From the NCBI GenBank assembly GCA_024404145.1, contig JAKSQK010000005.1, positions 1-64,000 on the forward strand: a stretch of 64,000 bases of DNA, read 5' to 3'. The position numbers and the translations under genes are program-made. The first letter of the stretch is position 1. Each line of letters starts with the position of its first letter. The stretch comes from Clostridia bacterium (GTDB lineage: Bacteria; Bacillota; Clostridia; Oscillospirales; Acutalibacteraceae). The notes below the pieces were generated by a model, which searched no databases, was not told the DNA's origin, and saw nothing but the letters and a program-made list of their open reading frames with translations. This document shows, in pieces, positions 9,727 through 12,943 of this stretch.

Positions 9727-11208
9727 TTATGAATGATAGAGTTTCTTTGTCTGGTACTTCGGTTCGCAGGTCATATTAACACCGAGTTTTCTGAAAGTTT
9801 GCTCATCAACCCTTGCGAGGATAACGGTTGAATGGGCTTCAAGACCTTTGAGTTTTGAAAGACTGTCAAGCGCTTTTTTTGCAAGGTCGTTAGTAGCAGC
9901 GCAAATCGAAAGGGCAATTAAAACTTCGTCGATATGAAGGCGAGGATTATGGTTACCGAGTATTTCGGTTTTCATTTTTTGAACCGGCTCGATAATCGTT
10001 GGCGATAAGAGGTTTATATCGTCGGGTATACCGGCAACTTCTTTCAACGCATTAAGAAGCATTGAAGAAGAGGAACCTAAAAGGGAAGAGGTTTTTCCGG
10101 TAATAATCTTGCCATTGTCAAGTTCGATAGCAGAGGCGGGCGCGCCGGTTTCTTCGGCCTTTTTGTTGGCGGCACTGATAACCGGACGGTCGTTTATACT
10201 TATCTTTAACTGATTCATCAGAAGTTCAATTTTTGTAACTTCCGACTGTTCTCCCAAACCCTGTCTTACATTATCAAGAGCAGTATAATATCTGCGGATA
10301 ATTTCTTTGTTTGCGGCCTCTTTGCAAATCTGGTCATCGCATATTGCAAAACCTGCCATATTTACACCCATATCGGTAGGGCTTTTATATGGCGATTCGC
10401 CGAGAATTCCTTCCATCATAGCATTAAGAACGGGGAATATTTCGATATCTCTGTTATAGTTAACGGTAGTCTTGCCATAAGCTTCGAGATGGAACGGGTC
10501 TATCATATTAACATCATTAAGGTCGGCGGTTGCGGCTTCGTAGGCAACATTTACGGGATGTTTAAGCGGAATACTCCAAATCGGGAAGGTTTCAAATTTT
10601 GCATATCCTGCTGTAATTCCTCTTTTATGCTCATGATAAAGTTGGGAAAGGCAGGTTGCCATTTTTCCGCTTCCGGGGCCGGGGGCGGTTATAACAACGA
10701 GTTTTCTTGAAGTTTCGATATAATCATTCTTTCCGAAACCTTCTTCGCTGACAATAAGCGGGATATTAGAAGGATATTCCGCTATCGGATAATGACGGTA
10801 GGTTTTGATACCTAAACTGTTAAGGCGGTTTTCAAAAGCTATTGCAGACGGTTGACCTGTAAATCTTGTAATTACAACACTGCCGACATAAAGACCGATA
10901 CCTCTAAATGCATCTATCAGACGAAGCGTATCAAGGTCGTAAGTAATGCCGAGGTCGCCCCTGCGCTTGTTCTTTTCGATGGCATCGGCATTTATGGCGA
11001 TGATTATTTCGGCATCGTCTTTAAGTTCCAAAAGCATTTTGACCTTTGAATCTGGAGCAAATCCGGGTAAAACCCTTGAAGCATGGTAATCATCAAATAA
11101 CTTTCCGCCGAATTCCATATATAGCTTATCGCCGAACATAGCAATTCTGTCTCTTATGTTCTGCGATTGCAACTGAATGTATTTTTCGTTATCAAATCCT
11201 ACTTTCAA
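9727..11208 (-). CDS. DUF1846 (UPF0371) family protein
   Basis: The 493-residue protein matches the DUF1846 family over its full length: an N-terminal MKVGFDNEKY, a glycine-rich APGPGSGKMA segment near residue 175 that resembles a phosphate-binding loop, and the SLLGSSSSMLLN region. The family is widespread in anaerobic Firmicutes and its reaction is not established. The P-loop-like motif suggests nucleotide or phosphate binding. The start is TTG 11208: the residues right after it match the family's N-terminus, and AAGGGAAAG lies a short distance upstream. The gene has its own terminator and no operon partner. Confidence 0.9.
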   Translation of the reverse strand: MKVGFDNEKYIQLQSQNIRDRIAMFGDKLYMEFGGKLFDDYHASRVLPGFAPDSKVKMLLELKDDAEIIIAINADAIEKNKRRGDLGITYDLDTLRLIDAFRGIGLYVGSVVITRFTGQPSAIAFENRLNSLGIKTYRHYPIAEYPSNIPLIVSEEGFGKNDYIETSRKLVVITAPGPGSGKMATCLSQLYHEHKRGITAGYAKFETFPIWSIPLKHPVNVAYEAATADLNDVNMIDPFHLEAYGKTTVNYNRDIEIFPVLNAMMEGILGESPYKSPTDMGVNMAGFAICDDQICKEAANKEIIRRYYTALDNVRQGLGEQSEVTKIELLMNQLKISINDRPVISAANKKAEETGAPASAIELDNGKIITGKTSSLLGSSSSMLLNALKEVAGIPDDINLLSPTIIEPVQKMKTEILGNHNPRLHIDEVLIALSICAATNDLAKKALDSLSKLKGLEAHSTVILARVDEQTFRKLGVNMTCEPKYQTKKLYHS

Positions 11209-11375: not shown

Positions 11376-11404
11376 TTGACAAATTGTAAATAATGTATTA
11401 TAAT
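11376..11404 (+). promoter_or_regulatory. Consensus sigma-A promoter of a small transcription unit
   Basis: TTGACA (11376-11381) and TATAAT (11399-11404) are both perfect consensus, 17 bases apart, making this the best promoter in the window. It drives rightward into the repeat-bearing non-coding stretch, not directly into argG, which has its own promoter after an intervening terminator. An imperfect palindrome (CAATTT-ATCA-AAATTG, 11338-11353) lies just upstream. Confidence 0.85.
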
Positions 11405-11410
11405 TAAAAT

Positions 11411-11635
11411 AGAAAAGAAAGGTGTGGATAAAAATGAAAGATACTCCACCGGAAAGTAATCTTAAATAAACCGAAAGAGGTGAGTCCGAAAATTACTTAA
11501 ATTTCTTTTCTAACGATATTATTATAAGGTGAGTCCGATGTACAAAATTTATTGATTTCAAACTATATTTAATTGGTGAGTCCGATGTACATTTAATATA
11601 TAAGGCGGGATTGTGTTTGCAGTCCCGCTTTTATT
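11411..11635 (+). ncRNA. Candidate structured small RNA or mini-ORF leader
   Basis: A unit of about 225 nt runs from a consensus promoter to a strong terminator (stem GCGGGA/TCCCGC at 11605-11628, then T-rich). AGAAAAGAAA (11411-11420) is perfectly complementary to 11502-11511 and could close a first domain. That domain would hold the hairpin GGTGTGGA/TCCACC (11421-11450) and the pairing AAGTAAT/ATTACTT. CGGA (11450-11453) with TCCG (11485-11488) would cross the last pairing as a pseudoknot. Three GGTGAGTCCG copies follow one another. It also holds very short ORFs with Shine-Dalgarno-like sequence: 11 codons at 11434, and MYKIY and MYI after repeats 2 and 3. I do not recognise it as T-box, 6S or any riboswitch class. 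RNA versus leader-peptide roles cannot be separated by reading alone. Confidence 0.55.
11479..11590 (+). repeat. Three-copy direct repeat GGTGAGTCCG(ATGTAC)
   Basis: Copies start at 11479, 11528 and 11575. The last two are identical over 16 bases (GGTGAGTCCGATGTAC) and the first shares ten. Spacings of 49 and 47 bases with unrelated A/T-rich spacers argue for selected motifs rather than a simple tandem duplication. GGTGA resembles the ribosome-binding core and ATG follows in two copies. Confidence 0.8.
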
Positions 11636-11638
11636 TTT
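11605..11638 (+). terminator. Terminator of the small unit upstream of argG
   Basis: The hairpin GCGGGATTG / CAgTCCCGC is followed by TTTTATTTTTTT. It separates the repeat-bearing transcript from argG. Confidence 0.85.
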
Positions 11639-11650
11639 TTGTTTTTAATA

Positions 11651-11679
11651 TTGACAAATGCTCTTTTTAGGTGTATCAT
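11651..11679 (+). promoter_or_regulatory. Predicted sigma-A promoter of argG-argH
   Basis: TTGACA (11651-11656) and TATCAT (11674-11679) are 17 bases apart, with argG starting 34 bases downstream. I could not recognise a convincing ARG box (ArgR operator) over it. Confidence 0.75.
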
Positions 11680-11713: not shown

Positions 11714-12943
11714 ATGAAAAAAGAGTGCATAAAAAAGGTTATTCTTGCATATTCCGGTGGGCTTGATACTTCGATTATCATTCCCTGGCTTAAAGAAAAC
11801 TATAATAACTGTGAGGTTGTTGCGGTTTCGGGAAATGTCGGTCAGGCGGAGGAGCTTGAAGGTCTTGAAGAAAAAGCGCTTAAAACTGGCGCTTCAAAAC
11901 TCTATGTTCTTGACCAAACCGATGAATATGTTGATGATTTTATAATTCCGACCATGAAGGCGGGTGCATACTACGAGGATTATCTGCTCGGAACTTCACA
12001 TGCAAGGCCCTGTATAGCAAAGGGACTTGTTGATATTGCAATAAAGGAAAAAGCAGATGCCATTTGCCACGGTTGTACCGGAAAGGGCAATGATCAGGTT
12101 CGTTTTGAACTTGCGATAAAGCATTTTGCGCCCGAAATGCCTATTATTGCGCCTTGGAGAGAATGGGATATCAAGTCGAGAGATGAAGAAATCGACTATG
12201 CCGAAGCCCATAATATACCTCTTAAAATAAACAGAGAAACAAACTATTCAAAGGATAAAAACCTATGGCATTTATCCCATGAGGGTCTTGACCTTGAAGA
12301 TACCGGAAACGAGCCGATGTATGAAAAGAAGGGCTTTTTGGAAATGGGCGTATCGCCTATTGACGCTCCCGATGAGCCGACTTATATAGAGCTTGAATTT
12401 GAAAAAGGCGTTCCTACAAAGCTTGACGGTAAAAAGATGACCGCAAAAGAGATTATTCTAAAACTCAACGAACTCGGCGGCAAAAACGGTATCGGAATAA
12501 TAGATATCGTTGAAAACAGACTTGTCGGAATGAAATGCAGGGGCGTTTACGAAACTCCCGGAGGTACAATTCTTTATAAGGCGCATGAAGCTCTTGAAAG
12601 TATTTGTCTTGATAAACTTACAATGCATGAAAAGCAAAAATTATCCATAACCTTTGCCGAACTTGTTTATAACGGTCAGTGGTTTACTCCGCTGAGAGAA
12701 GCCCTTTCGGCATTCGTTGATAAAACTCAGGAAACGGTTACGGGAAAAGTAAGACTGAAACTTTACAAAGGCAATATTATAAAGGCGGGGGTTTGGAGTG
12801 ATTATTCGCTTTACAGCGAAGAAATTGCAACCTTCGGCGAAAGCGATTACGACCAAAAAGATTCCGCAGGATTTATAAATCTTTACGGTCTACCTATTAA
12901 AGTTCAGGCGCTTGTTGATAAGAAAAATAAGAAGGATAAATAA
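11714..12943 (+). CDS. argG: Argininosuccinate synthase
   Basis: ArgG joins citrulline and aspartate using ATP to give argininosuccinate, the penultimate step of arginine synthesis. The 409-residue protein is full length, with the PP-loop AYSGGLDTS near the N-terminus, then [10 protein letters not shown] and [12 protein letters not shown]. The start is ATG 11714, behind AGAGGG, rather than an in-frame codon further upstream. Its stop abuts the argH start with no gap, so the two are surely co-transcribed. No carbamoyl-phosphate or ornithine steps of the pathway are in this window. Confidence 0.97.

Follow-up and report, generated by a model that had tools for sequence, protein, structure and literature searches.

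Lambda bar is a bacterial minigene, and the dual-function RNAs RNAIII and SgrS each carry one ORF of tens of codons together with an antisense seed. In the study of axe-txe, a two-codon minigene was argued to protect its RNA via ribosome pausing (PMC8708949). According to a review, the Bacillus 5' leaders that stabilize whole untranslated RNAs commonly depend on a strong Shine-Dalgarno (SD) sequence, which need not be accompanied by a start codon (PMC3997798). Here, we analyze a locus in a 64,000-nt stretch of Clostridia bacterium DNA (the window) at which the sequence predicts an RNA made largely of such elements. We found no description of a dedicated minigene-array RNA in Rfam 15 or in the open-licence literature searched.

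The locus occupies positions 11376 to 11638, with a minus-strand gene (9727 to 11208) on one side and argG (start near 11715) on the other; argG and the other gene names used here are by-eye readings of protein sequence. An earlier reading made from the letters alone (the sequence-only reading) had described a perfect consensus promoter and a strong terminator with no normal gene between them, and this description was borne out, as no normal gene was found between the two (Table 1). The three repeats that it had reported are also present, as copies of GGTGAGTCCG spaced 49 and 47 nt apart, with a 17-nt identity between the second and the third. This 10-mer has just three copies in the entire 1.28-Mb genome, no reverse complements, and no control matches. 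A fourth site had been overlooked, namely, a hairpin-masked 11-codon reading frame that we call micro-ORF 1. The RNA is predicted to start near 11411 and to run for ~225 nt, and its fold beats 199 of 200 shuffles (z -2.95). The 10-bp complementarity between 11411-11420 and 11502-11511 noted in the earlier reading does exist in the sequence but is not a conserved structure; in the four closest relatives 69% of cells pair, no better than in shuffles.

Table 1. Predicted features of the locus, in window coordinates
Feature	Position	Strand	Basis or remark
Sigma-70/A promoter	11376..11404	+	TTGACA-17-TATAAT, 12/12 consensus hexamer bases; conserved in 24 aligned genus members
SD region of micro-ORF 1, AGGTGTGGAT	11420..11429	+	Pairing possible with codons 11445-11450 (TCCACC)
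Micro-ORF 1, MKDTPPESNLK-stop, 11 codons	11434..11469	+	SD-preceded; M..PP..K ORF shared by most of the 47 genus loci
Unit 1, GGTGAGTCCG	11479..11488	+	Without AUG; AAA at 11489
Unit 2, GGTGAGTCCG, predicted translation-initiation site	11528..11537	+	Repeat and genus unit pattern
Mini-ORF MYKIY-stop	11538..11555	+	Read from sequence
Unit 3, GGTGAGTCCG, predicted translation-initiation site	11575..11584	+	Repeat and genus unit pattern
Minigene MYI-stop	11585..11596	+	Read from sequence
Intrinsic terminator	11602..11640	+	Stem 11602-11631, then TATTTTTTTG; stem begins 17 nt past the A of the last AUG

A covariance search of the window against Rfam 15 gave no matches at gathering and only chance-level scores below it, the best of which (the L20 leader, 23.5 vs. 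58.7 bits) was carried by the terminator. The proposal of the sequence-only reading that the locus makes a discrete, undescribed RNA is supported. The genome's match to 6S RNA (RF00013) sits on contig C11, not at this locus.

Using BLAST in 60 relatives, we obtained clear matches confined to the window's genus. A model of the 5' part, based on sequence alone and built with 24 genus sequences that match it by construction because they were included, has exactly one strong match (E < 1e-10) in 60 of 70 genus genomes and one strong copy in 38 of the 39 genus genomes of high quality; conservation in related genomes had been proposed beforehand as a check, and it was found. The strict unit pattern is present in 47 of the 70 genomes, with no control matches. 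The loci share a common plan: a promoter (TTGACAAATTGT...TATAAT), a leader rich in purines, a micro-ORF of the form M[KR][ED]x[TVI]PP[AE]...K-stop (in most loci), one to several GGTGANNCC-R-AUG units, and a terminator, which we detected 3' of the final site at 44 of the 47 loci. Unit copy number and spacer sequence differ between species, and neighbor genes differ among genus members (argG, DUF1292-like, lepA-like, L34-like, and ABC-transporter-like, by eye). A scan for GGTGANNCCRATGTACANTTAA across 84,980 species genomes yielded 28 loci, each of them in an uncultured Clostridia, Oscillospiraceae, or Ruminococcaceae metagenome-assembled genome; many of these genomes carry the names of ruminant, horse, or rabbit gut samples. 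As judged from these comparisons, the window feature is an RNA family with one gene per genome that is core in an uncultured gut Clostridia genus, and its single-copy, near-universal retention argues for a real role in these bacteria.

Matches to GGTGGAGCCGATGTACA in several families were discarded, as they lie inside a conserved reading frame on the opposite strand (gyrB-like, by eye), and most viral-contig matches to the unit pattern are coding or chance. The near-palindrome AAAAGTTATTAACTTTT, often found before the promoter, abuts the -35 box upstream in most genus members and is degenerate in the window's species (upstream of 11376); it is a possible operator or UP element.

Each unit is made up of GGUGA (often with AAAG or GGAG 5' of it), a fixed spacer ending in CC-R, and usually AUG. 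GGUGA falls within AAAGGAGGUGAUCC, the usual complement of the 16S 3' end and presumably also that of this genus (16S is absent from the assembly); at least 5 nt of AAAGGAGGUGAUCC are found upstream of the first ATG in 34 of 53 long window ORFs vs. 7.4% of all ATGs. The PP micro-ORF starts from a unit in two loci (L029 and L045), and L041 is alike except that UUG replaces AUG. AUG is present in 109 of the 153 units in the 47 genus loci, and 78% of these reach a stop within 3 codons vs. 24.5% when the 60 nt 3' of AUG are shuffled, percentages drawn from loci that are related by descent and hence from nonindependent events. Since AUGUACANUUAA is itself a conserved string, we counted apart the 43 AUG units with a second codon other than UAC, of which 93% stop within 3 codons (products MK, 25 times, and MG, MH, MF, ME, MR, MC, MNN, MHN, MVL, and others). 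The minigene peptide sequence varies between units and its shortness is constant; some last units open 8- to 13-codon ORFs, not minigenes. Most AUG units in the genus have the SD, the start codon, and the stop within a few codons that characterize a minigene. An NTG reading of the AUG-less units, with MSPK-type peptides in frame, was dropped because it would leave no spacer between the SD and the start codon. The pattern across the genus fits units that are predicted translation-initiation sites, as the sequence-only reading had suggested in describing the repeats as resembling ribosome-binding sites that open mini-ORFs.

The window has four evenly spaced sites (55, 49, and 47 nt), with the start of micro-ORF 1 lying 55 nt upstream of 11489, where the start codon of repeat 1 would be. 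Across the genus loci, for which micro-ORF 1, the units, and an additional 9-codon ORF found in the array of some species were listed as start sites, 139 of the 171 start-to-start distances fall within 45 to 61 nt and none is shorter than 45 nt. Random placement with the same end points gave a mean of 22 cases at 45 to 61 nt and 76 below 45 nt (extremes over 2000 trials, 37 and 61, respectively). The ~50-nt distance is reached by differing routes, from unit to unit, from ORF1 to unit (mostly 55 to 58 nt), and from the 9-codon ORF to unit (mostly 48 to 49 nt), and the micro-ORF stop is nearly always 18 or 19 nt from the next AUG. Some species have gaps of 100 to 270 nt between sites. Because an initiating ribosome covers roughly 35 to 55 nt, the sites appear to lie about as close together as ribosomes can sit. 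The even spacing could partly stem from tandem duplication of a ~50-nt unit; spacers are alike within some loci, not in the window.

The first site is also masked, as the SD region of micro-ORF 1 pairs with the ORF's own PP codons in 19 of the 26 distinct sequences from the genus (mean z -2.7); in L005, L006, and L044 both arms of the masking hairpin have changed with pairing kept, and in L013 and L018 (AGCG/CGCU) and L087 (GAGG/CCUC) other hairpins cover the same SD. Sequence comparison thus leaves the gene, its start sites, short ORFs, spacing, masking, and single-copy conservation well supported. In one subclade (L010, L011, and L020), ORF1 starts with GTG or TTG and has lost its own stop; it stays open across the first unit and ends at the in-frame stop of the minigene.

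Our preferred reading, to which we give about an even chance, is that the array RNA loads a file of initiating ribosomes and is a regulatory RNA that ribosomes protect, that titrates ribosomes, or both. A stand-alone RNA would extend from the strong sigma-A promoter to the intrinsic terminator, with a body formed by a tandem array of translation-initiation sites. The first site would open the hairpin-masked ORF of ~11 codons, and the others would open start-stop minigenes of 2 to 3 codons or lack an AUG. With 45 to 61 nt between sites, there would be about one initiating ribosome per site; ribosomes would load at each, run for 1 to 3 codons, terminate, and be replaced, such that the RNA carries a file of them. 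In Firmicutes, the 5'-3' decay route is closed off by a ribosome bound at an SD, and the array RNA would consequently be very stable. Units with and without AUG could both work, since a strong SD stabilizes RNA even without a start codon. If abundant, the RNA would draw initiating ribosomes or initiator tRNA away from other mRNAs. We infer ribosome occupancy, RNA stability, and the regulatory outcome; because most sites open ORFs of 2 to 3 codons, the job is probably holding ribosomes, not making protein. Among the functions floated in the sequence-only reading, sequestration of ribosomes comes close to this explanation.

A longer sister RNA, which likewise begins with the unit, occurs in other genera and families. 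Its 5' part consists of a promoter and then CACAGAAAGGGUGANNCCRAUG-x-stop at the predicted 5' end, with minigenes such as MYK, MYR, MYS, MYN, MYNQ, MF, MI, and MKK. A body of variable length follows (176 to 475 nt from the unit to the 3' module), and the 3' module comprises GAAAGAGAGGUUAA and a 9-codon ORF, MLDIKSEQK, with its stop codon in the stem of the terminator. When the order was searched with a covariance model of the module, matches came from 44 of 290 genomes (up to four copies each) and 26 of 147 genera (loci L098-L102, L110, L115-L118, and L190-L224), and the RNA reaches a second order of the class (L138 and L139). Within the window's genus, about 11 of 70 genomes have it, and the window's own genome is not among them. 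At the class level, most MLD-pattern matches are coding or chance; the pattern gave 50 raw matches on viral contigs, and a search of phage and plasmid records found no sister RNA. One IMG/VR contig classed as viral (L123) has a sister RNA at 10809-10830 with an amidase-like ORF within ~1 kb after it, a region that may be host DNA flanking a prophage. The terminator loop GGTGAAAGA is common to both RNA types, with differing stems (L018, L019, and L021; sister L115, L116, L117, and L061), and the variable middle of sister RNAs has a recurrent small hairpin with a loop like GCUUAA or ACUUAC (CUCGCUUAAGAG and CCCACUUACGGG; e.g., L099, ~1830-1850).

We put forward only tentatively, as something possible rather than expected, that the array RNA represents a new RNA-gene class, core in the genus and accompanied by a sister class in the order at large, that would act as a ribosome dock by reversibly holding initiating ribosomes at a series of start-stop minigenes spaced one ribosome apart. 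Counter to pure docking, micro-ORF 1 and the sister MLDIK ORF look conserved as peptides. A rival proposal, which we find unlikely, is that the RNA is a polycistronic mRNA encoding functional micropeptides (M..TPP..K, MIVRxxxIK, and the sister MLDIKSEQK), with the minigenes as coupling or insulating elements. The Pro codons of micro-ORF 1 have invariant positions 1 and 2 and a free position 3 in 37 loci, and this freedom suggests coding, but SD pairing with the PP codons constrains those same bases. Synonymous codons in MLDIK (Leu TTA/TTG/CTG/CTC and Lys AAG/AAA), its length of 9 codons in 21 of 22 cases, and the fixed distance from micro-ORF stop to next AUG also fit micropeptides. However, several loci lack the PP ORF and have a unit as their first site (L014, L017, L059, L072, and L090 among them), in the window ORF1 is the only micro-ORF, and across the genus the minigene peptides are unconserved.

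The units without AUG, about a quarter of the total (about 40), still keep UGAGUCC. They are what a base-pairing or protein-binding regulatory RNA would lead one to expect, with the repeats GGUGANNCC(R) as binding sites and their likeness to start sites secondary. We consider this improbable: the full 10-mer has no complement in its own genome, and the start-stop frames, the replacement of AUG by UUG, and the 18- to 19-nt rule play no part in such a scheme.

Less probable again is a leader or attenuator, in which ribosomes on the last minigene would disturb the terminator and cause readthrough into the next gene. The last AUG is 15 to 17 nt ahead of the terminator in several species, and the position of the stop codon in the sister RNA is suggestive of this arrangement. 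So are L034 (~1993-2014) and L058 (~186-207 and ~1066-1087), where a lone intergenic minigene, GGAGGTGAGTCCAATGTACAATTAA, has a terminator directly after it, as a tandem pair in L058; these solitary minigenes are possibly attenuators in a mobile element. Yet the terminator is up to ~190 nt further on in other relatives, and the genes past it vary in identity and orientation for both RNA types, with no consistent gene found downstream of the sister RNA. An argG leader or attenuator was rejected for want of a conserved gene downstream, and a near-consensus promoter-like site at 11651-11679 belongs to argG itself, so that the "leader" of the sequence-only reading, controlling a downstream gene, found no support. 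A chance or decaying repeat without function, for which one might cite the variation in unit copy number and spacer sequence by species, is scarcely credible given near-universal single-copy conservation in the genus and constrained start-stop frames and spacing.

If the preferred reading of a ribosome-loaded array is true, what selection has shaped here is an RNA with ribosome occupancy itself as its product, and the array would offer a natural system for the study of initiation, termination, and recycling. It would also be, to our knowledge, the first dedicated RNA made of a start-stop minigene array. The parts are of known kinds; the architecture, a dedicated RNA built as a minigene array, appears to be new. 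Similar RNAs may be widespread, because ORFs of 2 to 3 codons escape gene finders.

Each of the closest described systems shares part of this architecture. Like the STAB-SD elements of Bacillus cry3A, hbs, and aprE (PMC3997798), both RNA types have a strong SD near the 5' end (~10 to 20 nt from the predicted start) that would need no start codon, and a ribosome that guards the RNA against decay there would do so here; the STAB-SD is one SD in an ordinary mRNA leader, whereas here an array runs along an RNA without a main gene. The minigenes of lambda bar and axe-txe mg2 (PMC8708949) likewise combine an SD with AUG-X-stop, and the dominance of termination and peptidyl-tRNA drop-off would extend to the window RNA, but they are single and inside other transcripts rather than tandem in a dedicated RNA gene. 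Leader-peptide attenuators have a short ORF near or overlapping an intrinsic terminator, an arrangement that may be shared in some species and in the sister RNA, but no consistent downstream gene accompanies either RNA type. RNAIII and SgrS are also stand-alone RNAs carrying a short ORF, from which the window RNA differs in having several start sites and no seed that we could find. Finally, 6S RNA differs in sequence and fold but is likewise a core stand-alone RNA, and in the proposed reading the window RNA would, as 6S RNA does, hold a central machine by mimicry; by this analogy, which we offer with the same reserve as the docking proposal itself, a ribosome dock might be the translation-side counterpart of 6S RNA, which holds RNA polymerase.
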